This document shows, in pieces, positions 1-57,227 of a stretch of 57,227 nucleotides of DNA (its first letter is position 1; the number at the start of each line of letters is the position of its first letter). The position numbers were made by a program, and so were the translations under genes. Location of the stretch: NCBI GenBank assembly GCA_038093515.1, contig JBBPSI010000159.1:1-57227 (forward strand), read 5' to 3'. The notes below the pieces were generated by a model, which had not been told where the DNA came from, made no database searches, and was given only the letters and a program-made list of their open reading frames with translations. The DNA comes from Butyriboletus loyo (taxonomy: Eukaryota > Basidiomycota > Agaricomycetes > Boletales > Boletaceae).

Positions 1-3000
1 AACATCATCGTGCTATCACTGTTGCAGAGGAAAGGTTCTTCTGTGAATGTGACACCAGAAAAGGTGATAATCTTTCATGATAATGCTGTCTGAGCTGATT
101 GGTTTGGGTATTAGTGCCAGTGATTGTGTTATTTACCAAATGGGATGCACTTGTGATATAGGCATTTCAGCCTAAATACCTAGATCAGCCTCTAGAAGAG
201 CAACTCATGAAGCAGAGGGAGCATGCTGAAGAAATCTTTTACATGAGAAATATATGGAAGGATCTGAGCAAGATGGTATTTTCCTCACAGGCATATGTGA
301 AGCTGGAAAGTTTGTACATATATGCTCTTATCTCTATTCTCTTGTATTAATCATATTTCTAGGCATGGATAGATCTGACACAGGATGTTACACATTGCTG
401 AGAGAGACTGCAGCTGCATTGAATGATGCATCACTGCAGATGTTGTTGGTTACAGCACAGGAAAAGAATATCCTGCTCTGCATTGAGTATGCAGTCAGAC
501 AGTAAGTGAACCATGTTCTGGGTGTAAAGCATAGTATATTGATACCATAAAGTGTCTTGGTACCTTATGCTGAGTCCAGGACTGCTCAAAAGCGAAATCT
601 CAATCTGGGTGAGGCATTGGCAAGTTGGTTTCCACACACAAAGGTAAGAATTTAAGTCATTGGGATGAAAATATTATTATGCTTGAATGATATTGATGGA
701 TGGCTAGGTAATTGACATAACATGAAATCAAAAAAAGAGCTTACTGATTGATTGTTTAATTCTGTCCATGAAGAGAGTATGTGATACATTATGCATTGAA
801 GTTATGATAAGCTCACATACTAACAGGGTGTAAGTAGTATATCAAAACAAAAAAATCATTTAACCTATTCTATCACTCTTGCATTAATAGCTGGTGAGTA
901 ATCTAATGCAGACTTGAAAATATGAGTTCCTGTTTATTAAGGATTTGATTTCAAAGGGAGTAAGTCACACAGGAATACATGCAAATCAGCACATTAATAA
1001 TGGATTTGTTCATGCCTATTGCTATTTTGGTATCATTAGAGAGTAAGTGATCTGAAATGCACTAAGAAAGAATATGGCTAATAGATTGATGTTTGTCTTC
1101 ATGTAATATGATAGCAAGTAAGTGGTCTGATTATACCTGAAAGACACAAAACTGATACTTTCATATCCATTTGTATAAAGAAAGTAAGTGGCATTTGGAT
1201 GAAAAATATAACTTTAATTGATGACTTCAACTGCCATTTCCATGATAGTTTGTAGGTGATCAAGTATGCATTCTGAAACAAGGTGTTGACTATGGGCCTA
1301 TGTGCTGTATATTCCTTTCATAGCTGGTAAGTATTCTCTCTGAATATAAAATCCAAGCACTGCTGATGAATCCACCCTGTGCTGCTCTTCAATTGAAAGA
1401 TTGTAAGCACTCTGATGTGGAATTAAAATGAGATAGCTGATGATAAACATCCTTTGTATTGCACTCTCATTCATAGCAAGTAAGTGATCTATGGTGAATA
1501 CATCTGAAGTGAGAATTTTGTTGACACACATGCCTCCTCTACTCCCCTATTCATAGGATGTAAGTGGTCTTACATGGATTTAATGTAAGAATGTTACTGA
1601 TGAGCATCCTGTTATGGATTGGTATTTTTCCTCTGTTTTTTTCCTGCTGCTCTCCCAATGATAGGATGTAGGTGGACTAATGTTGATTGAAAGGAGAATG
1701 TGCTGATGAACATCTCTCCTGCTACTCTCCCATTGATAGTTTGTAAGTGGTCTGATGTGGATTTGAAATGAAATTGGTGCTGATGAGTATCCCTTGTGCT
1801 GCTCTCCAATTGATAGTTGGTGTGTGGCCAGATGTGAATTTGAAATGAGAATGCTGCTAATGAGCATTGTTCCTATTTCCCCCCATTGATAGGATGTAAG
1901 TGTCTGGATGTGAATTGGAATGAGAATGGTGCTGATGACCATTTCTCTCCATTGATACATAGCTTGTATGTGGCTGGATGTGAATTGGAATGAGAATGGT
2001 GCTGATGACCATTCCTCCTATTATAGTGTAAGTCTGAGTGAATTGGAATGAGAATGGTGCTGATCACCATTCCTCCCATTGACAGGCTGTAAGTGGCTGG
2101 ATGTGAATTGGAATGAGAATGGTGCTGATCACCATTCCTCCTATTTCCCCCCATTGATACATAGTTTGTAAGTGGCTGGATGTGAATTGGAATGAGAATG
2201 GTGCTGATGACCATTCCTCCTATTTCCCCCCATTGATAGCATGTAAGTGGCTGGATGTGAATTGGAATGAGAATGGTGCTGATGACCATTCCTCCCATTG
2301 ACAGGCTGTAAGTGGCTGGATGTGAATTGGAATGAGAATGGTGCTGATCACCATTCCTCCTATTTCCCCATTGATAGCGTGTAAGTGGCTGGATGTGAAT
2401 TGGAATGAGAATGGTGCTGATGACCATTCCTCCTATTTCCCCCCATTGATAGGATGTAAGTGGCTGGATGTGAATTGGAATGAGAATGGTGCTGATGACC
2501 ATTTCTCCTATTTCCCCCCATTGATAGGCTGTAAGTGGCTGGATGTGAATTGGAATGAGAATGGTGCTGATGACCATTCCTCCTATTTCCCCCCATTGAT
2601 AGTATGTAAGTGGCTGGATGTGAATTGGAATGAGAATGGTGCTGATGACCATTCCTCCTATTTCCCCCCATTGATAGTATGTAAGTGGCTGGATGTGAAT
2701 TGGAATGAGAACAGTGCTGATCACCATTCCTCCCATTGACAGGTTGTAAGTGGCTGGATGTGAATTGGAATGAGAATGGTGCTGATGACCATTCCTCCCA
2801 TTGATAGGCTGTAAGTGGCTGGATGTGAATTGGAATGAGAATGGTGCTGATGACCATTCCTCCTATTTCCCCCCATTGATAGTATGTAAGTGGCTGGATG
2901 TGAATTGGAATGAGAATGGTGCTGATGACCATTCCTCCTATTTCCCCCCATTGATAGGCTGTAAGTGGCTGGATGTGAATTGGAATGAGAATGGTGCTGA

Positions 3001-5232
3001 TGACCATTCCTCCTATTTCCCCCCATTGATAGGATGTAAGTGGCTGGATGTGAATTGGAATGAGAATAGTGCTGATCACCATTCCTCCTATTTCTCCCCA
3101 ATTGATAGCTTGTAAGTGGCTGGATGTGAATTGGAATGAGAATGGTGCTGATCACCATTCCTCCTATTTCCCCCCATTGACAGGTTGTAAGTGGCTGGAT
3201 GTGAATTGGAATGAGAATGGTGCTGATCACCATTCCTCCTATTTCCCCCCATTGATAGCGTGTAAGTGGCTGGATGTGAATTGGAATGAGAATGGTGCTG
3301 ATCACCATTTCTCCTATTTCCCCCCATTGATAGGATGTAAGTGGCTGGATGTGAATTGGAATGAGAATGGTGCTGATGACCATTCCTCCTATTTTCCCCC
3401 ATTGATAGCATGTAAGTGGCTGGATGTGAATTGGAATGAGGATGGTGCTGATCACCATTCCTCCTATTTCCCCCCATTGATAGGATGTAAGTGTCTGGAT
3501 GTGAATTGGAATGAGAATGGTGCTGATCACCATTCCTTCTATTTCTCCCCAATTGATACATAGCTTGTAAGTGGCTGGATGTGAATTGCAATGAGAATGG
3601 TGCTGATGGTGACTATTCCCCCCAATTGATAGGCTGTAAGTGGCTGGATGTGCATTGGAATAAGAATGGTGCTGATGGTGACCATTTCTTCTATTTCCCC
3701 CCATTGATAGAAGGTAAGTGGCTGGATGTGCATTGGAATGAGAATGGTGCTAATCACCATTCCTCCTATTTACCACCATTGATAGGATGTATGTGGCTGC
3801 ATGTGAATTTGGAGATGGTACTGATGAGCATTCCCCCTATTTCTCTCCTCTCAATAGGCAGTAAGTTGTGTAATGTGAATTTTAATGTAGAGTTGCTCAT
3901 GAGGATCCCTCTTGCTTCTCTCCATTGATAGCAAGTAAGTGATCTAATATGGATTTCAAAGAACAATGTTGTTGATGAGCTTTCCTTGTGCTCTTCCATT
4001 GATAGGGAGTAAGTTGTCTGATGTGCATTTAAAATGAAAATTCTGCTAAGCAGTATCCTCCCTGCTGCTCTTTCTTTCACAGGATGTATGTGGTCTCATA
4101 TGGACTCTAGGCCAGATGCTGTTGCTGATTTCTCTCTGATGGTTCACCTGTCTGCTTCTATGGCTATTTGGATACTAGTTTGTGAGCATCTTTGTATGCA
4201 TGTGAAAATGTTCATTGCTGATTAATTCATGTTCATTGCTTTCATTGCTTTCTCATTAACAGGCAGTGAGTGATCTGACCTGACATTGGAGAATGAATCT
4301 GATTTATCTGCCCACTTTACTCTTCCTTCCAGAGGGTAAATCACATGATATGTTGTTCCAATGTGTATTACTAATATATGCATGCCTGCCTCTCATGTTT
4401 TCTTCCAAATAGAATGTAAGTGATCTCATTCACAATTGAAATCTGCATTCTGCTCATGAAACCTCTATTTATTTTGAAATTTTGATATAACCCTATTATC
4501 TTCTGGTATACTTAGCTGGTAAGTATTATCTTGCTACTGTAATAGTTATGCAGCTATGAATTGATTATCATTCCTATAGGATGTAAGTTTATTTTTCCAT
4601 GCAATCTTATTTGTGTTATTTAATTTTATGCTTTATCCACATTTAGAGGGTAAGACATCTATGTGATTGTTTAAATATTGTACTCATAATTTGACCAGAG
4701 TGTCAGTTTTTAACTTGAAGGTCTTTATATTGCAATTGACATCATGCAGATTGTCACCAACCCTCAGTCCTCCCTGGTAAATCATTTATCATTTGATCAT
4801 ACTAGGAATTTGCTACAACAATTCATTTCAGAGTTCTCTTCAACCAACAGAGGCAAAGACCATGGTGGCATGTACAATCATGAAAATATATTTACTGTAT
4901 TAACTCTTTATGTATTTCAGATCAAAAAGAGAACCACTGAGAGAATGGTTCTGCAACGTGGCATTGGTAAGTTAATTCATTTTGAATTTTCATAACCTTG
5001 ATATCTTTTCATAGGCCTTATACTACTTCTTCAATATTCCTTCACTCTGGTCCAAAATAAATCTGAAAATCCCTTTGCCTTAGCAGAAGAAAGGTATAAA
5101 GCATCTGGGGTATCTGCTCAGATATCAAAGAAACTGGATGAGATCTTATCCAAACATTTTGCCACCAAATCTAGAGATGAAAAAGTGGACCTTGTCATGG
5201 ACATCATAAAGCAGCACCCTTTGTGTAGGTAG
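1..5232 (+). pseudogene. P-loop GTPase, copy 1 (3' part; probably decayed)
   Basis: This is the 3' part of a GTPase paralogous to the gene at 45,823-51,091; its 5' end lies left of the window. Exons by alignment with that copy are 1-63, 115-309, 363-501, 535-643, then the one-codon exon array, then 4750-4776, 4832-4864, 4921-4966 and 5015-5232. The G4 motif TKWD is at 135-146. The C-terminus ends in a conserved helix and TAG at 5230-5232. Decay is visible: codon 159-161 is TAG where the other copy has CAG. A second TAA at 548-550 is in frame if the short version of the preceding intron is used. One array spacer (2027) has shrunk to a single base. Splice sites and C-terminal exons otherwise remain intact, so a truncated product or readthrough is not excluded. 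In this family the protein is expected to bind and hydrolyse GTP; its cellular role is unknown. Confidence 0.75.
644..4749 (+). repeat. Tandem intron array with 3-nt microexons, copy 1
   Basis: This is a run of intron-like units, each starting GTAAGT, GTGAGT or GTATGT and ending in TAG, CAG or AAG. The gap to the next donor is exactly three bases in 52 of 53 cases (for example 774-776, 827-829, 891-893, 2305-2307, 2453-2455, 4516-4518, 4647-4649). The exception is a single T at 2027. Units at the two ends are diverged. The core (about 2029-3635) is homogeneous: a 72-nt intron plus 3 nt, period 75 bp, with some 65-bp units lacking part of the pyrimidine tract. Each core unit has donor, CTGAT branch site, pyrimidine-rich tract and TTGATAG acceptor in the correct order and spacing. 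Because 75 is a multiple of three, long meaningless reading frames run through the core on both strands. No triplet is a stop. The alternative reading, one 4.1-kb intron filled with satellite, does not explain the fixed three-base spacing at the diverged ends. Confidence 0.8.
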
Positions 5233-7689: not shown

Positions 7690-8469
7690 TGTAAGGAGGG
7701 ACAGCAGCTCAGTTTTATTGCTTGGGGAAACAGGTGACATGGTGGATGATGCGGAAAGATCAGATGCAGGGATGGAGAAACCGACGACGCAAGAGGTCGG
7801 GAGGGAATTAGATTTTGAAGAGAATGCGGCATCTTGCTGGAGGTGGGATACCCATGATGGATTGGGAGCAGCTGGTTTGGCTGGGGCTGGGGTGGCAGGA
7901 GGTTCCGTGCTAGGCGGCTGGACCGATTATTCCGTAGCGACGGGACTAATTCTGGAGCGATGTCTGGTTGAGGCGGGACAACGCAATCCGGTTGTGGAGA
8001 CTCATCTGACTTGGTTTTTGCGGGAGGGTCAGCGGCAGAAAAGGACGTATCCGTAGAGACGGGGGAAGCGGGGACGGAGGTATCTGGTGCGGTGGATGTT
8101 GCAGGAGTCATTTTGGTGTCGGCCGAGGAGGGGCATCTATGTGATCGGGCGCGGTCGGGGAGGACCTCAGTGGGAGGCGAGGAGGGAGGAGAAGAGGGGA
8201 GCACGAGTGCTTTCCGGATGATGTCATCTGGAGGACGGGCACGGGGGGAGATGATGATACCAGGCGCGATAGAGCGCCCCCGTCATCGTCTTCGGAGACC
8301 ACATGCTCGACGACGCAGGGGAAGACGGGGGAGAGGCGGGAGAGGCGGGAGAGGCGGGAGAGGCGGGAGAGGCGGGAGAAAGGGCGGATGGGACGGAGGG
8401 GACGGAGGGAGCAGAGACAGAGGCAATGGGAGCGTGAGCGGGAGACGGGGATGAGCGTGGGTTTCGCCC
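7690..8469 (-). other. Ser/Pro-rich low-complexity region
   Basis: A long minus-strand open frame (8204-7473) gives a protein rich in Ser, Pro and Thr without a recognisable domain, running into the duplicated UBP fragment. It could be the remains of the disordered N-terminal region that Ubp3/USP10 proteins carry, but the expected Cys-box exon between the two is absent. The region also holds a short minisatellite (8331-8384). No other gene is supported. Confidence 0.4.
8331..8384. repeat. 9-bp minisatellite (GAGAGGCGG)x6
   Basis: Six perfect tandem copies of GAGAGGCGG lie inside the low-complexity region next to the chimeric junction at about 8505. Purine-rich on the plus strand, it translates to a Pro-Pro-Leu repeat on the minus strand. 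It is probably simple slippage. Confidence 0.9.
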
Positions 8470-42813: not shown

Positions 42814-44778
42814 TCAAGAAAGAACAGCAACGATGACACCCTCCCCATCCGCTAGTCCCACCTTGAATCCGTTGCGATAGCAATCCTCAGTCCCTCGAGG
42901 AATAAACCCACCCATCGCACTCAGACTATCTTGAATGTATTGCTCCGCAAACCCGAGTCTCGACCACCCGTGCTGCGTAAAGATCTTGGCAGTTTGATAG
43001 CCGTCCGAGTATCCCTGAATCGACGACTGTTGCTGCGCGGTTGTCATGTTCCGCGAAGTGGTACCATTACTTGCTTGAGCTGGCATGGGGAAGCTCTCGA
43101 GCCTTTTGAGAATGTCAGACTGGGAGGGAACGGTCATGCTGGCCACTGCAGCGTAGACACGCTGAAGCTCAGCAGGATCGGTAGGAGGCGGTTTACCATA
43201 CGAGAAAAAGGTATCTGGGAGGCTTTTCCCGACGGCGGCTTTGAAGCACCAGCCTTGATCTGTATCACAGCCCTCCTTGTTATAAGCTAGTCAAATCGGT
43301 TAGGCTACCAGGGTTACCGAGAGAGGGGCGGGTACGGTACGACGCACACCAGAACGACCAGCCAGCACTCGTATTCGTATAAACACCCATCTGAGCAGTA
43401 CAGAATTGCTTTCTAGCTTCGTCTGGATTACCCTGGGTCGACAGACTCTGAGTGGTTAACGCGCATGACCATTCGTTAATCACTAGATTTTCGCGGTCTT
43501 TCGAGTCCGCCGCCCCAAGATCGCTAGAAATCGATCCTTGGACATCGCTGGTATGCTGGTATGCTGGTTCGGACTCGTCCGCAGGCGTGAAAACAAAATA
43601 GGAGTGGTGGTCCTCAACTACGAAGTCTGAGCGCCCGGAGAGGTAGGTACTGTACTTCTGGAGGTTGAAGCCATCATGAATGTAGAGCGGAAGATTGGGT
43701 GCTTCCAGGACGGTCCTTTGTCTCATAGCCGTGATCGCGTTCGTGTCTGTTACGGAGGCTGAGTGGTCACCAACAGCGCGCAAATCATGCACACGCTTAC
43801 AGAAATCTGAGAGCTCAGGTACATCGTTCGGCTCATTCAATACTTCGATGCCGACAACGTTGGTTACGTTATGAAGCTGGGCCGCCAAGAACATCAGAAC
43901 CTCCATGGTTTTGTCCGTGTATGCAGTATTGTTGAACAGCCTCGTCTGACCATCGGATACACCAGAGTGTGGTTGCCCGTTCTGACTTCCGACCGCGCCG
44001 TGAAGGTCCACTAACACACCGATGCCAGATTGCGCAGCCATGTTGATCGCCCGGACAAATCGAAGGAAGGAGTTCGTGTAAACGCTCGCATACGGCTCGA
44101 AAGGGGTGCCCGTGAGGAAGGTTGGTCCGAGCGTCCAGTATCCGATCGGGAGGCGGACGGTGTTGATGCCAATGTTTGCGAGGTAGTCAAAATCCGATTG
44201 GTTGATGAACGTATCCCAGTGTCGTTCGAGTACAGCGCGAGCATTTTCAGCGGATCCCCAACCTGAGGCAATGTCTATTTCTGCACTTCGTGGTCCTGAT
44301 GCGCACGTGAAAAGGGAAGGGACCATCCAGTTTTCTTGTACGAACCTGTCGAATGGAAATACTCATGTGAAAGAGCGGGAAGGTGTCTTTCCCATACTTA
44401 CCATGAGCCTAAGTTGACGGATTGTTGCCTTCGATAACGGTATATAGCTGCCGTGGTGGAGTCAAATGACCAGAAGGTTTGGTTGGTGAGGGGTGGGGAG
44501 TCGTACGGCACCACCGAGCATTGTGTGTCTGTACCAATGTCGCCACCCGTAGGGTGAAATGCCGTTGCATTGTAGTCCAAACCAGTGCCGGAAGTATTGA
44601 ACGTCGTATCGACTAGCGGACTCAGAAAGCCGGAGCCATGGAAGCTGGAAAATTCGATTGGATTTGCAGTGCTATTGCTTGTCGGTGGGCCGCTTGGGAA
44701 AGGTTTGTATGATCCCTCGACCAAGTTCAAAGCTCGAAGAAGGGTGACAAAGTTTTCGATGAACGTCGACGACGACAT
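42814..44778 (-). CDS. GH5 exo-beta-1,3-glucanase
   Basis: Cell-wall glucanase of glycoside hydrolase family 5, similar to fungal exo-beta-1,3-glucanases. Three exons (44,778-44,402, 44,345-43,348, 43,286-42,814) join in frame to 615 residues. The barrel begins FVQENWMVPSLF and has GINTVRLPIGYWTLGP, GVLVDLHGAVGSQNG, GIEVLNEPNDVPE (acid/base Glu), EDHHSYFVF and NLVINEWSCAL (nucleophile Glu). A C-terminal extension includes GYSDGYQTAKIFTQHG and GFIPRGTEDCYRNG. No signal peptide precedes the first ATG used here. A hydrophobic stretch on the same strand near 45,130-45,180 might belong to a missed first exon. Both catalytic Glu are present, so I regard it as active. Confidence 0.87.
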
Positions 44779-45822: not shown

Positions 45823-48800
45823 ATGAAGGCCTTAAAACAACGAATTCGACGCCTCCAATCCGGCATCGCCAGTAGAGATTCGTCTCCGGCGCCTTCAAGT
45901 TCCCAGCATTCCCATACACCCAATATGCAACCCAACGCAGTCCCCAGCGATTCAGACATTCTCCTGACCCAAGCCAAAGGCGCCGATGCTCTGGCCCTTG
46001 AGATACAGCACAAAGATTCAGATGTGCCCAAGGAACAGGTCACAGATCCCACCTCTCTCGAGCCGCACCCCGACAACTCGAGTGCTGTTGACATGCAGAC
46101 GTTCATGCAACATGTTGACCCGGATCTCATGGAGAAATTTGGACGATTTAGAATTCTCATCATCGGCAGGGCGAATGCCGGCAAGACGACCATCCTTCAG
46201 AGCATATGCAACGCGACGGAAGATCCGGAGATCCACCATCAAGGGGAAAAGGTAGGGTTGATAAAGCTGAGATATACCGGATGCTAATGCCGTTGACGTG
46301 TGATCAGGTTGACTTTGCGATCCAGGGATCCAGGGAGGTGAGTGTCATGGCTACGTCCATGTCATTTGCAGTGCTTTTGCAAGCCGTCTCGTGTTTCACA
46401 GCGTGGACTCCATGATATCAATTATGAGATGGTTTTCAAAAGCAACGGCAAATTTGTCTTCCATGACTCTGCTGGTTTTGAGGCTGGTCGTGAGGATGAG
46501 TTCGACAAGACAAAGGACTTCATCACGGAGCGTGCCAGTACAACTTTCCTTGAAAAGCGAATTCATGCCATCTGGTGAGTGGGCATTATTTTACTAGGTC
46601 CTGATGACTCTTATACAAGCAGGTACTGCATTCCAATGGATCAACATCATCGTGCTATCACTGTTGCAGAGGAAAGGTTCTTCTGTGAATGTGACACCAG
46701 AAAAGGTGATAATTTTTCATGATAATGCTGTCTGAGCTGATTGGTTTGGGTATTAGTGCCAGTGATTGTGCTATTTACCAAATGGGATGCACTTATGATA
46801 CAGGCATTTCAGCCTAAATACCTAGATCAGCCTCTAGAAGATCAACTCCTGAAGCAGAGGGAGCATGCTGAAGAAATCTTTGCAAAGAGAAATATATGGA
46901 AGGATCTGAGCAAGATGGTATTTCCCCCACAGGCATATGTGAAGCTGGAAAGTTTGTACATATATTCTTCATCTCTATTTTCTTGTATTAATCATATGTC
47001 CAGACATGGATACATCTGACACAGGATGTCACACATTGCTGAGAGAGACTGCAGCTGCATTGAATGATGCATCACTGCAGATGTTGTTGGTTACAGCACA
47101 GGAAAAGAATATCCTGCTCTGCATTGAGTATGCAGTCAGACAGTGAGTGAAACAATTTCTGGGTGTAAAGCATAGTATATTGATACCATCAAGTGTCTTG
47201 GTACCTTATGCTGAGTCCAGGAATGCTCAAAAGCAAAATCTCAATCTGGGTGGGGCATTGGCAAGTTGGTTTCCACACACAAAGGTAAGAATTTAAGTCA
47301 TTCAAAAATTATTGGGATGAAAATATTCTTATGCTTGAATGATATTGATGGATGGCTAGGTAATTAACATTACATGAAATCAAAAAGAGCTTACTGATTG
47401 ATTGTTTAATTCTGTCCATGAAGAGAGTATGTGATACATTATGCATTAAAGTTATGATAAGCTCACATACTAACAGGGTGTAAGTGGTATATCAAAACAA
47501 AAAAAAACATTTAACCTATTCTATCACTCTTGCATTAATAGCTGGTGAGTAATCTAATGCAGACTTGAAAATATGAGTTCCTGTTTATCAAGGATTTGAT
47601 CTCAAAGGGAGTAAGTGATCTGAAATGCACTAAGAAAGAGTCTGGCTAAAAGATTGATGCTTGTGTTGATGTAATATGATAGGAAGTAAGTGGTCTGATT
47701 ATACCTGAAAGACACAAAACTAATACTTTCATATCCATTAATATAAAGAAAGTAAGTGGCATATGGATGAAAAATATAACTTTATTGATGACTTTGTGTC
47801 CATCTCAACAACTGCCATTTCCATGATAGTTTGTAGGTGATCAAGTATGCATTCTGAAGCAAGGTGTTGACTATGGGCCTATGTGCTGTACATTCCTTTC
47901 ATAGCTGGTAAGTGTTCTCTCTGAATATAAAATCCAAGCACTGCTGATGAATCCACCCTGTGCTGCTCTTCAATTGAAAGATTGTAAGCACTCTGGTGTG
48001 GAATTAAAATGAGATAGCTGATGATAAATGTCCTTTGTATTGCACTCTCATTCATAGCAAGTAAGTGATCTATGGTGAAGTGAGAATTCTGTTGACACAC
48101 ATGCTTCCTCTATAGGATGTAAGTGGTCTTACATGGATTTAATGTAAGAATGCTACTGATGAGCATCCTGTTATGGATTGGTATTTTTCCTCTGTTTTTT
48201 CCTGCTGCTCTCCCAATGATAGGATGTAGGTGGACTAATGCTAATTGAAAGGAGAATATGCTGATGAACATCTCTTCTGCTACTCTCCCATTGATAGTTT
48301 GTAAGTGGTCTGATGTGAATTGGAATGCAACTGGTGCTGATCACCATTCCTCCCATTTCCCCTCATTGATAGCGTGTAAGTGGCTGGATGTGAATTGGAA
48401 TGAGACTGGTGCTGATCACCATTCCTCCTATTTCCCCTCCTTGATAGATTGTAAGTGGCTGGATGTGAATTGGAATGAGACTGGTGCTAATCACCATTCC
48501 TCCTATTTCCCCTCATTGATAGTATGTAAGTGGCTGGATATGAATTGGAATGAGACTGGTGCTGATCACCATTCCTCCCATTTCCCCCCATTGATAGCAT
48601 GTAAGTGGCTGGATGTGAATTGGAATGAGACTGGTGCTGATCACCATTCCTCCTATTTCCCCTCATTGATAGCGTGTAAGTGACTGGATGTGAATTGAAA
48701 TGAGACTGGTGCTGATCACCATTCCTCCTATTTCCCCTCATTGATAGTATGTAAGTGGCTGGATATGAATTGGAATGAGACTGGTGCTGATCACCATTCC

Positions 48801-51091
48801 TCCCATTTCCCCCCATTGATAGCATGTAAGTGGCTGGATGTGAATTGGAATGAGACTGGTGCTGATCACCATTTCTCCTATTTCCCCTCATTGATAGGCT
48901 GTAAGTGGCTGGATGTGAATTGGAATGAGACTGGTGCTGATCACCATTCCTTCTATTTGCCTTCATTGACAGGCTGTAAGTGGCTGGATGTGAATTGGAA
49001 TGAGACTGGTGCTGATCACCATTCCTCCATTTCACCTCATTGATAGCCTGTAAGTGGCTGGATATGAATTGGAATGAGACTGGTGCTGATCACCATTCCT
49101 CCTATTTCCCCTCATTGATAGTATGTAAGTGGCTGGATGTGAATTTGAATGAGACTAATGCTGATCACCATTCCTCCCATTTCACCTCATTGATAGCCTG
49201 TAAGTGACTGGACATGAATTGGAATGAGACTGGTGCTGATCACCATTCCTTCTATTTGCCTTCATTGACAGGCTGTAAGTGCCTGGATGTGAATTGGAAT
49301 GAGACTGGTGCTGATCACCATTCCTCCTACTTCCCCTCGTTGATAGGCTGTAAGTGGCTGGACATGAATTGGAATGAGACTGGTGCTGATCACCATTCCT
49401 CCTATTTCCCCCATTGACAGGCTGTAAGTGGCTGGATGAGAATTTGAATGAGAATGGTGCTGATCACTATTCCTCCTATTTCCCCTCATTGCTAGGCTGT
49501 AAGTAGCTGGATATGAATTTGGAATGAGAATGGTGCTGATGACCATTTCCCCCATTGATAGCGTGTAAGTGGCTGGATGTGAATTGTTGGAATGAGAATG
49601 GTGCTGATGATCATTCCTCTTATTCCCCTAAATTGATAGCATGTAAGTGGCTGGATTTGAATTTGGAGATGATACTGATGAGAATTCCCCCTATTGCTCT
49701 CTCATTGATAGGCAGTAAGTCATGTAATGTCAATTTAAAATGCAGAGTTGCTCATGAGCATCCCTCTTGCTCCTCTCCCTTGATAGCAAGTAAGTGATCT
49801 AATATTGATTTGAAAGAAGAATGCTGTTAATGAGCTTTCCTTGTGCTCTTCCACTGATAGGAAGTAAGTGGTCTGATGTGGATTTAAAATGAAAATTCTA
49901 CTAAGAAGTATCCTCCCTGCTGCTCTTTCTTTCACAGGATGTATGTGGTCTCATATGGACTCCAGGCCAGATGCTGTTGCTGATTTCTCTGATGGTTGAC
50001 CTGTCTGCTTCTATGGCTATTTGGATACTAGTTTGTGAGCATCTTTGTATGCATGTGAAAATGTTGATTGCTGATTAATTCATGTTCATTACTTTCATTG
50101 CTTTCTCATTAACAGGCAGTGAGTGATCTGACCTGACATTGGAGAATGAATGCTTTATCTTTACTCTTCCTTCCAGAGGGTAAATCACATGATATGTTGT
50201 TCCAATGTGTATTACTAATATATGCATGCCTGCCTCTCATGTTTTCTTCCAAATAGAATGTAAGTGATCTCATTCACAATTGAAATCTGCATTCTGCTCA
50301 TGAAACCTCTATTTATCTTGAAATGTTAATATAACCCTATTATTTCACAACTTCTGGTATACTTAGCTGGTAAGTATTATCTTGCTACTGTAATAGTTAT
50401 GCAGCTATGAATTGATTATCATTCCTATAGGATGTAAGTTTATTTTTCCATGCAATCTTATTTGTGTTATTTAATTTTATGCTTTGTCTACATTTAGAGG
50501 GTAAGACATCTATGTGATTGTTTAAATATTGTACTCATAATTTGACCAGAGTGTCAGTTTTTAACTTGAAGGTCTTTATATTGCAACTGACATCATGCAG
50601 GTTGTCACCAACCCTCAGTCCTCCCTGGTAAATCATTTATCATTTGATCATACTAGGTATTTGCTACAACAATTTCATTCATTTCAGAGTTCTCTTCAAC
50701 CAACAGAGGCAAAGACCATGGTGGCATGTACAATCATGAAATTATATTTACTGTATTAACTCTTTATGTATTTCAGATCAAAAAGAAAACCAACACTGAG
50801 AGAAAGGTTCTGCAACATGGCATTGGTAAGTTAATCCATCTTGAATTTTCATAACCTTGAAATCTTTTCATAGGCCTTATACTACTTCTTCAATATTCCT
50901 TCACTCTGGTCCAAAATAAATCTGAAAATCCCTTTGCCTTAGCAGAAGAAAGGTATGAAGCATCTGGGGTATCTGCTCAGATATCAAAGAAACTGGATGA
51001 GATCTTATCCAAACATTTTGCCACCAAAACTAGAGATGAAAAAGTGGACCTGGTCATGGACATCATAAAGCAGCACCCCTTGTGTAGGTAG
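45823..51091 (+). CDS. P-loop GTPase, copy 2, with 42 one-codon exons
   Basis: A GTP-binding protein with G1 GRANAGKTT (residue about 115), G3 DSAGF (about 175) and G4 TKWD (246-249), resembling the large agaricomycete family of 'G domain' proteins; role unknown. Ordinary exons are 45,823-46,251, 46,308-46,337, 46,402-46,574, 46,623-46,705, 46,757-46,951, 47,004-47,142, 47,176-47,284, then 50,601-50,627, 50,688-50,720, 50,777-50,825 and 50,874-51,091. Between 47,284 and 50,601 lie 42 predicted exons of three bases each. The spliced product is 536 residues, with 387-428 supplied by the microexons. Frame is phase 0 before, through and after the array, and the C-terminal exons read on to LVMDIIKQHPLCR and TAG. 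The intron after 47,142 is 33 nt with acceptor TAG, or 51 nt with acceptor AAG (six residues fewer). If the whole array were skipped, the protein would still be in frame at 494 residues. Confidence 0.78.
47285..50600 (+). repeat. Tandem intron array with 3-nt microexons, copy 2
   Basis: Forty-three consecutive intron-like units are separated by 42 triplets, every one exactly three bases (first 47,424-47,426, last 50,498-50,500). The outer units are diverged and align one to one with copy 1, except that copy 2 lacks one unit after the fourth microexon. The core (48,301-49,642) has 18 triplets between homogeneous units. Its sequence type differs from the core of copy 1: GAGACTGGTGCTGATCACC here against GAGAATGGTGCTGATGACC there. 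Core triplets all end in T and code for Arg, Ile, Tyr, His, Ala and Pro. Order repeats locally (Arg-Tyr-His occurs after a near-identical run), suggesting multi-unit duplications. Read without splicing in the gene's frame, each core intron meets TGA at its sixth codon. Confidence 0.82.
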
Positions 51092-52614: not shown

Positions 52615-53886
52615 TCATTGAGACGATCCCTCGTTGAAGTCGTAGTCGTAAGGATCGTCGGCAGGGAGGTCTGCCCACGCGTCGTCCCGGAACGTGCAGT
52701 TGGCGACGATGTGGCCAACGGCTCCACATAGGCCGCAGATGCGCTCTGGACAAAACTCCTGTATATGACCAGGGGCGATCCGATGACAGAAGGGACATGC
52801 GTAGTTGGGGCATTCCCTGCGAAAGTGACCGGCGGTCCCGCACTCGAAGCAGAGTTGCGGGCGGACGAGGCGAGGTCGAGCAGCGCTCGTGCTGGGGTCA
52901 GGCGATCGGTCGTCGACGATGATAGGGGAATTACGAGTGCCCCGACCAGGGAGGTAGGGGGGCGGGGGTCCGTACGAAGAGTCATTAGAGCTACCAGCTG
53001 TAGCGGCGGCGGTGGTGACGTGGGGAATGAGCTGGATGGCGGGCGTGCCTCGTCGGGTAGACGGTTGGGGGGTGACGGAGCGGACGGCTCTGTTGGCGAT
53101 TCTTCGTCCTGCGGCAGTAAGGGTGACGGATCCAGGGATTGCTCCGACCTGGAGTAGCGCCTGGCGAGGTTGGCGACGCACTGTACGAGGCGGTAGGGGG
53201 GAGTGTCGACGAGCGACCTGGGGCTCGTCGACGTCGGTCCGAAAGGACTCCAGGGACTCTCCTGTTGTCTCACGAGACGAATCTGCTACCAACGTGGTTG
53301 CAGGAGAGCTTCGGACGGGTGGCGCTGGAATAGGTACAGGCGAAGGAGATCTTGCCGGGGGAGGACGAGGCACTGGATTGGGGCCGCGAGCCATGGGGCG
53401 GAGGTAGCCGATGCGGTCGGCGGAATGGAGGTAGAATTGCCGCTCCCTAGGAGCAAGCGCGATGAGGATGGGTCTAAGGACGGGGGCCAGAATACCTGGC
53501 AAGAGTTGATCAACCACGTAGCCGAAGCCTTCGGCGTGGAGAATATCGAGGGTATATCCCCTAGCCTCCATCAAGGAGGACTCAAGGGCGGCGGAGTAGA
53601 CGGGTGGTTGATTGTCTGGGCACAGACGGGTGTGGACGGTGCGGGCGAGGGCGTAGGAGCGGTAAAGGGAAGCGAGTGTGCGGAGGACATAGTCTCCGGT
53701 AAAGTCCATACGCTGCTCCAGGGCGTAGGTGGCGACGGGGTTTTCGAGGACTGCGGCGTACAGTACGCGGCGAGAGGACACTGGGAGACGCGAAGAGCGG
53801 ACTGGGGGTTGCGGTGGAAGGGGAAGGTTTTCGTTGTTGTCGTTGGCAGCAGAAGAAGCATTGTTTTCGACTGGGGAGATGGACAT
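52615..53886 (-). CDS. Retroelement ORF downstream of pol, three zinc knuckles
   Basis: A 423-residue frame starting 11 bases after the pol stop. The first 150 residues are helical and contain ALEQRMDFTGDYVLRTLASLYRS. A Pro/Arg/Ser-rich middle follows. At about residues 345-395 there are three zinc knuckles: CFECGTAGHFRREC and CGLCGAVGHIVANC fit CX2CX4HX4C exactly, while CPFCHRIAPGHIQEFC has six residues before the His. An acidic Asp/Tyr tail ends at 52,615. Knuckles are normal for Gag nucleocapsid, but Gag is encoded before pol, so this is an additional ORF. It may bind element RNA; that is inference. Confidence 0.8.
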   Translation of the reverse strand: MSISPVENNASSAANDNNENLPLPPQPPVRSSRLPVSSRRVLYAAVLENPVATYALEQRMDFTGDYVLRTLASLYRSYALARTVHTRLCPDNQPPVYSAALESSLMEARGYTLDILHAEGFGYVVDQLLPGILAPVLRPILIALAPRERQFYLHSADRIGYLRPMARGPNPVPRPPPARSPSPVPIPAPPVRSSPATTLVADSSRETTGESLESFRTDVDEPQVARRHSPLPPRTVRRQPRQALLQVGAIPGSVTLTAAGRRIANRAVRSVTPQPSTRRGTPAIQLIPHVTTAAATAGSSNDSSYGPPPPYLPGRGTRNSPIIVDDRSPDPSTSAARPRLVRPQLCFECGTAGHFRRECPNYACPFCHRIAPGHIQEFCPERICGLCGAVGHIVANCTFRDDAWADLPADDPYDYDFNEGSSQ

Positions 53887-53897
53887 TTTCGAGTGTT

Positions 53898-56800
53898 TTA
53901 CTGCGAAGATGGGGAGGAAAAGTCCTTGGGGTGGCGCAGTTTATAAGCCTTGAGCAAGGCCTGCGCATGGACCAGGTTCCCGTTTGGTTCCCAGGTGTTT
54001 TCTGCTGCGGAATATCCTTTCCAGGACACAAGGAACTGACGGCGTCCCTTTGAACCGCGATGGGACAAGATCCGATCGATCTCGTACTCTTCATCTCCGT
54101 CTATCTCTTCCGGAGGGGGATTGGTAAAGTTCGGGCCGTGTTCTGCCGTTTCGCGATAAGGGGTCAGGAGGGACGCGTGGAAGACATCATGGATCTTCCA
54201 TGTCGGCGGCAGTCGGAGCCTGTACGCCACAGGAGAGATGACCTGTGCGATTTCGAACGGACCTTCCCGTCTAGGGGCGAGCTTCTTCGACGGGTACCTG
54301 AGTCGAAGGTTGCGCCCTTCCAACCAAACCTTATCGCCAGCCTTCCACGGACGGAACTTGGACTGGATCCGTTCCTTCATCAACCGGCGTGCCTTCTCGT
54401 GTGCTTCTAAAGCTTCCGTTCGGGCTCCCGTGAGCTCCGAGAGTCTAGACTCAAGGGCGGGGAGGAACGTCTTTCCGATTGGGGGATAAGACCTCGGCTC
54501 ATACCCGACCATCAGGGAGAATGGGGACACGTTCGTCGAGGAGTGAGTCATCGAGTTGTGGGAAAACTCGGCCATGGGGAGGAGCTCTGCCCAACGCTCG
54601 GGATGACCGTCACAGAAGATTCGGAGGTACGTCTCCAATTCTTGGTTAACTCGTTCAGTTTCACCGTCGGTCTGTGGGTGATACGCGGAAGAGAGGGCGA
54701 GGTCGTAATCGAGCAGTCTGGCGAGTTCCCTAGCAAATGCCGACGCGAACTGCGGACCTCTGTCGGAGATGCAGCGGGAATGTAGGCCGAACCGAAGGAA
54801 GACGGTTTTGAAAAATAACTTGGCAACTCCTGCCGCGTCGATGTCTTTGTTGCAAGGGGAATAAATTACCCCCTTCGTAAGCCCATGGTCTACCACGACC
54901 ATGACTGAATCATAACCCAGAGAGGGAGGGAGACCGGTGATGAGGTCGACTGAGACCTGTTCAAAAGGGCGAGAGGCCACGCTGGCCAGAGGGGTGAGAG
55001 GGGGGACGGTGGGATGAGTATTAACTTTATGCGCTTGACATACGGCGCAGCCCGAGACGAAACGGCGGACCAAATTAGCCATGCCTGGCCACCAATAATC
55101 ACGTTGCACCAGATTCTGGGTGCGGAATATTCCACCGTGACCCCCAGCGGGACTCTCGTGTAAGGACCGAATAAGGTCGACGCGTGCTTCCTCGGGGATG
55201 TAGCGCTTCTTGCGAAAGTACAGCTCTTTGCCGTCGAAGTCCCAATCCCCAGCATTCATTTTGGGAAAGAGCGGGGAGTCTTCGTAAAGAGCCTGCATGC
55301 AACGCTTAATCATAGGGTCGCTGGGGGTGGAGGCGGCAATCTTTTCGGCAAGAGCGACGTCAATCTTGCGAGCGAAGAGATTTTCGGGGAGGAGAGTAAC
55401 TTCCTGGTTGTCGGCGGAAGTGTCAACGTCGTCGCGGCGGGATAAGGCATCGGCCGGGCCCATCTGAGTACCCGGAATGTGATGGAAGTGCAGGTCGAAA
55501 TCCTGCAGGAACATAAGCCAGCGTGCTTGCCGGCGAGACAACTTGTTTGGTTGGCGGAAGTAGGTGAGATTCTTGTGGTCGGTGAGAATCTCCACCTGAT
55601 GACCAGTACCGCGCAGGTAGTGGCGCCATTCTTCTAATGCGTGAATGACCGCGAGCAACTCGCGATCATAGATATCGTAATTGCGCTCAGCGGGCGAGAG
55701 CGTCTTTGACAAGTAGGCGCAAGGATGCAGGTCGCCATTGACATCCTTTTGCATGAGCACTGCTCCAGTAGCAGTGAGAGAGGCATCCGTCATCACGGCA
55801 AACGGCTTCGTGACATCGGGCATTGAGAGAACGGGTTGTCGTAAGAACGACTGTTTGATTGCTTGGAACGCCTGTTCGCAAGCCGGGGTCCAAGCCCATG
55901 GAGAGTTCTTCTTAGTCAGGTCGTGCAGTGGCTTCGCGATGTGAGAGAAGTCCTGTATGAACCTGCGATAAAAATTGCAAAACCCGATGAAGGACCTGAC
56001 TGCCTTCACCGAGGTCGGGGGGTTCCATTCGCGAATGGCTTTCAACTTGGTCGGGTCCATCTTGACCTGCCCTTCTCGGACCATCATCCCGAGGTATTCC
56101 ACTTCTTCGGCATCGAACGAACACTTTTCCAGTTTGAGGAACAACTTGTGTTCGCGAAGTCGCTCCAGGACACGGATCGTTCGTGCCTCGTGTTCGGCAG
56201 AGGTGGCGGAGTGGATCAAGAGGTCGTCCATGTAGATGATCAACCACCCTTCTGCCATGAGGTCGCCGAAGATATGGTCCATCAAAGCTTGGAAGGTCGC
56301 TGGGGAGTTGCAGAGGCCGAAGAACATCACGGTGGGTTCGAACAGCCCTTGGGGGGTGATGAAGGCCGCTTTCCAGCGGTCGTTCGGCTTGATGAGGACG
56401 TTGTTGTATCCCCAGCGGATGTCCATCTTTGTGAAGATTTTGGACCCTTTGAGACGGTCGACGAGGTCGGAGATGAGGGGGAGAGGGTAGGCGTTTTTGA
56501 CGGTGTGCGAGTTCAGGTACCTGTAGTCCTGACAGGGGCGTAGCGAGCCATCCTTCTTGGATACGAAGAAGAAGGGGGCAGCTTGAGGAGACTTCGAAGG
56601 AGTGATCTTTCCCGACTTGAGGTGTTCCTCGACGAAAGCTTTGCAGGCCTCCGACTCTTTCGGGTTTAGAGGATAGACCTTGGCGACTTTTGGGACAAAG
56701 TCTTTGTCGAGGTCGATAGCATGGTCGAAAGATCGGGACGGGGGTAGTTCCTCAGTGTTCTTCTTGTCAAAAACGTCCGCGAAGGACTTGAACGGGGTTG

Positions 56801-57227
56801 GGAGAACTGCTTTCTCCTTGACGGCTTGGGCGGCGATCTCAGTCGCGATGGTTGCCTTTCTGACAGGGTAGGCGTCCCTTGCTGAAGCGTCTACTCGCTT
56901 CTTCCAGAGCTTGGCGATCTTGGAGTCTGGGTCCAAGTCAAGGTACCGTACCAGGTATCGTTGAGCGATTGCCCGAGGGGAGTCGTGTCGGGGCTTCTTG
57001 ATTTGATCTGGGAGATCGATGTGGCCAGTGGCCCAATCTATTACCGGGTTGGCCTCTCGTAGCCACGGCAATCCCAGGATCATGTTTTCTTTTCCTATGT
57101 TGAGGACTAGGAAACTTCGTTCCTCCTCGGTTTCTCCAATTCTGATGGAGATGTTGACCTTGTGTCTGATGACTCCTCCTTGGTTATTTGACCCGTCCAC
57201 GTTTTGGGCACTAAGTGGCTTGGGTAG
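53898..57227 (-). CDS. Ty3/gypsy Pol polyprotein (partial), chromovirus
   Basis: Open from the window edge; position 57,200 is GTG, not ATG, so the start is off-window. Order from the edge: end of retropepsin (MILGLPWL), reverse transcriptase with AAPFFFVSKKDGSLRPCQDYR and IYMDD (about residue 322 counted from 57,200), RNase H (MTDASLTATGAVL, YDRELLAVIHALEEWRHYL), integrase with its HHCC finger (HESPAGGHGG to CAVCQAHK) and DDE core (VDLITGLP, SDRGPQF, HPQTDGETERVN, about residues 750-847). A C-terminal chromodomain follows (EYEIDRILSHRG, FLVSWKGY, NTWEP). The chromodomain defines a chromovirus, a group that targets modified chromatin. No stop or frameshift is visible in 1100 codons. Confidence 0.92.
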   Translation of the reverse strand, partial: LPKPLSAQNVDGSNNQGGVIRHKVNISIRIGETEEERSFLVLNIGKENMILGLPWLREANPVIDWATGHIDLPDQIKKPRHDSPRAIAQRYLVRYLDLDPDSKIAKLWKKRVDASARDAYPVRKATIATEIAAQAVKEKAVLPTPFKSFADVFDKKNTEELPPSRSFDHAIDLDKDFVPKVAKVYPLNPKESEACKAFVEEHLKSGKITPSKSPQAAPFFFVSKKDGSLRPCQDYRYLNSHTVKNAYPLPLISDLVDRLKGSKIFTKMDIRWGYNNVLIKPNDRWKAAFITPQGLFEPTVMFFGLCNSPATFQALMDHIFGDLMAEGWLIIYMDDLLIHSATSAEHEARTIRVLERLREHKLFLKLEKCSFDAEEVEYLGMMVREGQVKMDPTKLKAIREWNPPTSVKAVRSFIGFCNFYRRFIQDFSHIAKPLHDLTKKNSPWAWTPACEQAFQAIKQSFLRQPVLSMPDVTKPFAVMTDASLTATGAVLMQKDVNGDLHPCAYLSKTLSPAERNYDIYDRELLAVIHALEEWRHYLRGTGHQVEILTDHKNLTYFRQPNKLSRRQARWLMFLQDFDLHFHHIPGTQMGPADALSRRDDVDTSADNQEVTLLPENLFARKIDVALAEKIAASTPSDPMIKRCMQALYEDSPLFPKMNAGDWDFDGKELYFRKKRYIPEEARVDLIRSLHESPAGGHGGIFRTQNLVQRDYWWPGMANLVRRFVSGCAVCQAHKVNTHPTVPPLTPLASVASRPFEQVSVDLITGLPPSLGYDSVMVVVDHGLTKGVIYSPCNKDIDAAGVAKLFFKTVFLRFGLHSRCISDRGPQFASAFARELARLLDYDLALSSAYHPQTDGETERVNQELETYLRIFCDGHPERWAELLPMAEFSHNSMTHSSTNVSPFSLMVGYEPRSYPPIGKTFLPALESRLSELTGARTEALEAHEKARRLMKERIQSKFRPWKAGDKVWLEGRNLRLRYPSKKLAPRREGPFEIAQVISPVAYRLRLPPTWKIHDVFHASLLTPYRETAEHGPNFTNPPPEEIDGDEEYEIDRILSHRGSKGRRQFLVSWKGYSAAENTWEPNGNLVHAQALLKAYKLRHPKDFSSPSSQ

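Follow-up and report, generated by a model that had tools for sequence, protein, structure and literature searches.

A tandem array of introns separated by single codons, predicted to encode a hypervariable protein segment in a G-domain gene family of Butyriboletus loyo

The exons of micro-exon genes range from several to tens of nucleotides (nt) and differ from one another. Like the gene described here, micro-exon genes (schistosome MEG genes, aphid bicycle genes and plant microexon clusters) contain many tiny exons and elude gene finders, and some of them, again like this gene, belong to fast-evolving families. Exons can be as short as a single codon: a 3-nt exon is usable in Drosophila homothorax (PMC7392893), and a gene structure with two 3-nt exons has been given for lipase genes of Dactylellina haptotyla (PMC5639578). 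These cases comprise one or two 3-nt exons rather than a tandem array, and the parts of the reports that concern them mention no hypervariability. Functional microexons have been stated as not previously described in filamentous fungi, in a paper whose relevant passages mention microexon predictions in three fungal genes and a function in S. pombe (PMC11121469). Here we describe W2, a gene on a 57,227-nt stretch of DNA from the bolete Butyriboletus loyo (contig JBBPSI010000159.1, hereafter the window), in which 42 single codons are each bounded by splice sites between 43 introns. Unlike in micro-exon genes, the run consists throughout of single-codon exons, 40 to 57 of which stand in a row in W2 and related copies, and the repeated element is the intron. 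We consider it highly probable that these tandem intron arrays are spliced codon by codon into a hypervariable protein segment of 40 to 57 residues whose middle has diversified.

The array of W2 occupies positions 47,285 to 50,600 of the plus strand, where a site scan of the window located 42 consecutive AG-NNN-GT junctions (first triplet at 47,424, last at 50,498), spaced 53 to 110 nt from start to start and without a stop codon among the 42 triplets. The gene begins with exon 1 (45,823 to 46,251), which holds the start codon, the N-terminus and a P-loop of the form GxxxxGKT, present as GRANAGKT, and continues through exon 2 (46,308 to 46,337), exon 3 (46,402 to 46,574, G domain), exon 4 (46,623 to 46,705), exon 5 (46,757 to 46,951), exon 6 (47,004 to 47,142) and exon 7 (47,194 to 47,284), which ends ...ASWFPHTK in phase 0. 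These seven exons were placed by spliced modeling and paralog comparison and are open in all eight lifted paralog copies, with a single donor altered to TT in the copy C46a. Past the array lie exons at 50,601 to 50,627 (VVTNPQSSL), 50,688 to 50,720 (SSLQPTEAKTM) and 50,777 to 50,825, and a last exon with the stop codon at 50,874 to 51,091, whose start was set by homology to the relative P0003 (GIGCALILEHSF). The joined model has 530 codons and no internal stop, so all 42 triplets keep the frame; without the array it has 488 codons. The initial annotation, made from the letters alone, had claimed 42 of 42 gaps of exactly three bases, all sense codons, and phase 0 on both sides; the junction scan bears out the former, and the latter agrees with the 530-codon model, in which the upstream exon ends with AAG at 47,284 and the downstream exon begins with GTT at 50,601. 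Its start of the exon before the array at 47,176 is replaced here by 47,194, from comparison with P0001 and the paralogs. In Pfam, residues 110 to 217 of a 498-residue model matched MMR_HSR1, the G domain, at 24.1 bits against a gathering cut-off of 21.9; this model, used for the homolog and Pfam searches, is shorter by 27 nt in exon 7 and by 69 nt in the last exon. A sequence search of PDB with the W2 protein gave no match. Apparent chains of 9-nt exons were also seen and rejected as an artefact of the 75-nt repeat period.

Three zones can be told apart within the array. A 5' constant part of 13 single-codon exons (AGA GGT CTG GGA GAA AAA TTT CTG ATT CAA GAT GAT TTT; 47,424 to 48,300) was delimited by comparison with seven paralogs, and a 3' constant part of 11 (GCA CAA GAA GAT TTT GCA AGG AAT CTG GAT AGG; 49,712 to 50,500) likewise by paralog comparison; between them, unit comparison defined a variable core of 18 exons of the form NNT in units of about 75 nt (48,373 to 49,642). 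The close clade has two stretches largely in common: 14 triplets at the start (R G L G R E K F L I Q D D F, the second R being absent from W2) and 11 at the end (A Q E D F A R N L D x).

The 3-nt spacing is far commoner in the arrays than outside them. Among 390 GTRAGT sites in 17 arrays of the genome, 369 have their nearest upstream AG exactly 3 nt away, compared with 2 of 44 elsewhere in the window; a further 12 array sites have it 1 nt away, as expected from AGA or AGG triplets. A second control, taken from the same loci outside the arrays, was set aside: with two arrays in the window, each is scored as lying outside the other (87 at 3 nt). Across the genome, three consecutive sites with a 3-nt exon gave at least 274 matches and the reversed pattern 10; two-site patterns with 4-nt and 6-nt exons gave 0 and 3 matches, respectively, and the GTATGT version of the two-site pattern with a 3-nt exon gave 0. 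These patterns are of unequal length, so the counts for different exon sizes show a contrast and not exact ratios. Near-identical core units have multiplied by duplication, so that their spacing is inherited and not independent evidence, which lies instead in the diverged outer units and the paralogs. The rule persists in the diverged outer units, as the initial annotation stated, and in the paralogs: the 437 array introns counted (446 gaps minus nine outside 40 to 115 nt) take 43 different lengths and the exon stays at 3 nt. Of these introns, 335 start with GTAAGT. The annotation's mention of CTRAY branch sites stands over the whole set, with CTRAY 10 to 50 nt from the 3' site in 298 introns (shuffles, 161 ± 9.5) and CTRAY without an intervening AG in 281 (shuffles, 87 ± 8); W2's own 24 outer introns give no clear excess.

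W2 belongs to a family. The genome contains 17 such runs of 6 to 57 triplets: W1 and W2 in the window, and C46a, C152, C149, C8a, C111, C337, C46b, C351, C75, C6, C8b, C411, C254, C158 and C164, of which C351 and C164 include a stop triplet. These two short runs, together with one overlapping triplet call in C6, were excluded from unit comparisons. W1 (644 to 4,749, plus strand; first triplet at 774, last at 4,647) has 52 single-codon exons and has lost its 5' exons at the contig start. The exon before the array has 12 matching places in the 30.3-Mb assembly, and in-frame models contain 42 single-codon exons in W2, 57 in C149, 40 in C46b and 42 in C6, the last with two 3' exons placed only roughly. 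Between W2 and seven paralogs the ratio of nonsynonymous to synonymous differences (pN/pS) is 0.40 overall, 0.71 in the N-terminal 93 codons and 0.25 in the remainder with the G domain; by these measures the family members behave as functional genes. Named relatives, among 120 listed of 553, are Boletales (among them Butyriboletus, Imleria, Chiua, Rhizopogon, Boletus, Suillus and Pisolithus), and a Butyriboletus relative shows 67% identity over 74% of the W2 query. The gene family, the second array in the window and the codon hypervariability described below go beyond the initial annotation.

Several copies are truncated or interrupted. Contig ends cut off the arrays C152, C111, C254, C158 and W1, and contigs C159, C111, C152, C158 and C254 end inside or next to arrays, so that the assembly may understate both how many copies exist and how long their arrays are. 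Judged by eye, C8a and C8b appear to be one gene interrupted by a long terminal repeat (LTR) retrotransposon, and the arrays C337 (L014), C46a (L009) and C411 (L020) are broken off by LTR-like sequence. The C8 insertion (L012, L019) stands at a GTT triplet with GTTGT on either side, and retrotransposon-type open reading frames (ORFs) were seen in C8 and C337.

Comparison of distant paralogs is informative on the triplets. In the first nine units of C6 and C75, 24 of 27 triplet bases, 76 of 81 splice-motif bases and 351 of 506 intron-body bases are identical (p 0.02); in five end units of W2 and C6, whose register was picked by eye, the figures are 13 of 15, 32 of 36 and 163 of 259 (p 0.05). 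Intron identity in these W2 and C6 units is 0.54 to 0.64, and that of shuffled introns 0.51 to 0.56. Pooled over distant paralogs, identity amounts to 37/42 for triplets, 108/117 for splice motifs and 514/765 for intron bodies, with triplets above intron bodies at a one-sided Fisher p of 0.002; of the four triplets that differ, two still encode the same residue. Between distant paralogs, then, triplets and splice motifs last longer than introns.

Relatives whose genes are seen without introns carry an insert at the same site. The proteins P0003, P0008, P0033, P0062 and P0117 (432 to 543 residues) come from contigs of 1,529 to 1,848 nt with only 212 to 392 nt beyond the ORF. Nine ordinary W2 introns total 486 nt, more than this non-ORF sequence, and the five were therefore taken as complementary DNA (cDNA). 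Aligned with MAFFT, the five agree with W2 on either side of the array, and each carries an insert following WFPH: ERFEVFREFVFEFANLDR in P0003, TRDNFDWYYQDDRRDFKNLTEM in P0008, ARYYYDDVRDLDVLDLLRDLDVLLLL.. in P0062, about 36 residues in P0033 and, in P0117, about 40 residues among which N, W, D and R abound. Near the end of the insert, four of the five (P0003, P0008, P0033 and P0117) have F-x(1,2)-N-L, in the forms FANL, FKNL, FMNL and FDHNL, a motif that W2 and C158 carry on separate exons (TTT-GCA-AGG-AAT-CTG and TTT-GCA-AAT-CTG, respectively). Including these four, it occurs 15 times in 44,360 residues of 130 proteins. Among Suillus gene models, P0123 and P0114 have no insert in the alignment, and P0118, P0121 and P0124 seem to translate across introns at the array site, a lead that Suillus may have such arrays too. 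P0124 reads LLLACSQ twice at that site.

In the core, variation is concentrated on two bases of each unit. Among 158 core units, pairs differ on average by 0.65 at the first codon position, 0.73 at the second and 0.10 at the third; AG, GT and positions +5/+6 are invariant, other intron bases up to +36 differ by 0 to 0.28, and the stretch from -9 to -18 ahead of the 3' site differs by 0.19 to 0.55 in an ungapped comparison. For 615 core pairs that share 47 identical flanking bases, 59% differ at position 1, 61% at position 2 and none at position 3. A set of 28 units with 61 identical flanking bases contains seven codons (CAT 6, GCT 5, GAT 4, TAT 4, CCT 4, CTT 3, CGT 2). Duplicated blocks behave similarly: between units 17-20 and 19-22 of C111, 0 of 288 intron bases differ and 6 of 8 codon bases at positions 1 and 2, and a block comparison in C158 gives 0 of 272 against 4 of 8, these being the two extreme rows of 11. 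Codons are also inherited, since a block duplication at lag 6 in C111 changed 1 of 8 codon bases and 3 of 288 intron bases, and C158 has (L022, from 32) nine consecutive GCT exons in units of about 71 nt, which is a young, uniform expansion; both argue against instant randomization of codons. Of 163 core codons, 161 have T in the third place, though a change to A or G could alter the residue in 50. Base counts are C66, G61, T25 and A6 at position 1 and C53, A48, T39 and G18 at position 2, and the two positions are not independent (p 6e-5).

Third bases also point to splicing. Across all arrays 0 of 477 triplets end in C; in a tally of 461 the third base is T in 287, A in 118, G in 56 and C in none, whereas 94 of the 380 codons in ordinary exons of W2 end in C. 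A missing C at this place can be read as a constraint of the 5' splice site at position -1, and we read it so here. The proposal of the initial annotation that the triplets are spliced into protein is thus supported, at the level of sequence comparison, by the frame, the distant paralogs, the lack of NNC and the insert of the relatives.

Other observations weigh against this reading. In the 24 outer introns of W2, CTRAY occurs in 11 against 8.8 ± 2.3 in shuffles, with no clear excess (without an intervening AG, 9 against 4.5 ± 2.0). In the close clade, outer triplets and introns show similar conservation (0.937 against 0.942 and 0.887 against 0.905, for 15 and 12 units), so this comparison alone proves nothing, and C158 against C6 taken alone is not significant (14/18 against 226/381, p 0.09). 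Seven further G-domain loci were fetched. The five more distant ones (C20, C385, C209, C31 and C218) have no array, the sole chain among them being four sites including a stop in C20; the sixth, C107, is cut by a contig end, and in the seventh, C146, whose first exons are about 90% identical, no chain was found up to the contig start and later exons were unmatched. A metatranscriptomic, cDNA origin of the five relatives on short contigs is only probable, the insert of P0062 lacks F-x-N-L, and P0008 and P0033 are closely related (62% over the insert region), so the four motif cases are not fully independent. Removing 43 adjacent introns around 3-nt exons would be demanding, and skipping could be common; that all 42 codons are included in Butyriboletus loyo is something we infer.

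One alternative hypothesis treats the array as a satellite of intron origin that lies within one giant intron and is removed whole, so that the triplets never enter messenger RNA. The frame is also kept by the 488-codon model, the core is a tandem repeat with inherited spacing, and the parity of outer triplets and introns in the close clade would follow. Yet such an intron would hardly show triplets and splice motifs outlasting introns in distant paralogs, a total lack of NNC, codon positions 1 and 2 hypervariable next to identical introns, or an insert at the array site of intronless relatives, with F-x-N-L in four of five, and we regard it as very unlikely. Neutral spread of a selfish, introner-like unit with codons as passengers would account for complete introns multiplying in tandem. 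However, drift does not vary two bases amid 61 identical neighbors, and among the matches listed runs occur only on contigs of the family and in the 6-triplet fragment C164, to which no gene is tied; this check covered a query of two units, the triplet pattern as listed to contig C111 and a further pattern (5 against 20 when reversed) that shows contigs only. We hold this explanation to be highly improbable. A 25-residue tandem-repeat protein encoded antisense is scarcely credible: ORFs of 240 to 327 codons do run through the W1 core on the minus strand (1,873 to 3,704), but none of at least 230 codons lies opposite the W2 array and many units are not divisible by 3 in length, and the W1 ORFs are probably a by-product of the 75-nt period.

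Two further alternatives concern how the array would be used and changed. Triplet exons might be freely included or skipped, giving a cloud of isoforms per gene. Since each array exon is 3 nt long and in phase 0, skipping any of them would keep the frame, and 183 of 193 array introns of length divisible by 3 hold an in-frame stop on retention, which would leave skipping as the variation that stays readable. The largely constant order and identity of codons at the array ends, on the other hand, suggests faithful inclusion there, and combinatorial splicing on such a scale seems doubtful to us, if conceivable. A dedicated process might also change positions 1 and 2, in place of selection acting on ordinary mutations. 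The extreme block pairs of C111 and C158, with codon bases changed beside unchanged introns, and the near-uniform T at position 3, where a change could alter the residue in 50 codons, would fit such targeting. Inheritance of codons in the lag 6 duplication of C111, the run of identical codons in C158 and the dependence between positions 1 and 2, as given by selection on residues or shared descent, speak against it, and we think targeted mutagenesis improbable. Still more speculatively, a targeted process altering the first two bases of NNT could act together with inclusion or skipping of single exons, creating receptor-like repertoires at the levels of both DNA and RNA; we rate this combination as decidedly improbable.

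Under our preferred reading, a tandem intron array spliced codon by codon, introns would be removed one after another by intron definition, and the segment would be built residue by residue between the conserved G-domain part (..WFPH) and the conserved C-terminal part. Outer codons may be held by purifying selection, and the core could lengthen or shorten through tandem duplication of intron-plus-codon units. Homogenization of introns and diversification of codons would then give each copy its own residue string, with diversifying selection putatively driving the core codons; the order of splicing, the splicing of every triplet and diversifying selection as the driver are what we infer. We tentatively suggest, giving it a little less than even weight, that the segment has a recognition role, in non-self recognition or ligand binding. 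If spliced as modeled, these genes would mark an extreme of exon size and number, with one codon per exon some 40 to 57 times running, and the arrays would probe the minimum exon size and density for an intron-defining spliceosome. They would also represent a new route to protein diversification, for when the repeated part is the intron each duplication adds exactly one residue and the frame is never broken. The introns could serve as a built-in control when gauging selection or targeted mutation on the codons. In several gene models of relatives the segment seems to be left out or wrongly translated, and it may therefore be overlooked in Boletales.

Elsewhere in the window, an LTR-type retrotransposon (zinc knuckle; reverse transcriptase, RNase H, integrase and chromodomain) lies on the minus strand just downstream of W2 (52,615 to 57,200), and an ORF with a GH5 cellulase domain lies near W2, also on the minus strand (43,280 to 44,326). 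A perfect 9-nt tandem repeat comprises 5.7 copies of GGGAGAGGC (8,329 to 8,379). A promoter scan and tRNA and Rfam searches returned nothing informative.

The initial annotation was aware of no gene with such a run, and in the open-licence literature on microexons and introners we likewise recognized none with a run of single-codon exons. W2 resembles micro-exon genes in having several internal exons of at most 30 nt and divisible by 3, namely the 42 single-codon exons and two others, of 27 and 30 nt. Introners and introner-like elements are, like the array units, multiplying spliceosomal introns, and they occur in fungi. Whereas introners and stwintrons are dispersed or nested insertions, array units are tandem, complete and, as far as seen, of one family: among the matches listed similar introns were not found in many unrelated genes, and the units stand side by side, each with its own GT..AG, with no nesting of the stwintron kind, in which a splice element is broken by a second intron. 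With regard to diversity-generating retroelements, which have a reverse transcriptase of their own and a template repeat with adenine-directed change, the reverse transcriptases seen resemble those of LTR retrotransposons, by Pfam or by eye; no search for template repeats was made. A further likeness may lie in repeat arrays under concerted evolution, since our arrays too appear to combine homogenized units with a few hypervariable, residue-changing sites. The WD repeats of Podospora het-d and het-e are described as homogenized both inside a paralog and from one paralog to another; a few of their codons are reported to be under diversifying selection, and copy number varies (PMC1805685). By that description a het-d or het-e repeat encodes a whole WD unit, whereas the unit of W2 encodes one residue and the homogenized part is the intron. 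The zinc-finger minisatellite of PRDM9 and the repeats of transcription activator-like (TAL) effectors also consist of near-identical units that differ at few selected residues, which the W2 core resembles. Both are coding minisatellites, in which the repeated unit is the exon rather than the intron, and each array unit of W2, as modeled, would contribute a single residue in place of the folded protein repeat of the het-d/e and PRDM9 type.

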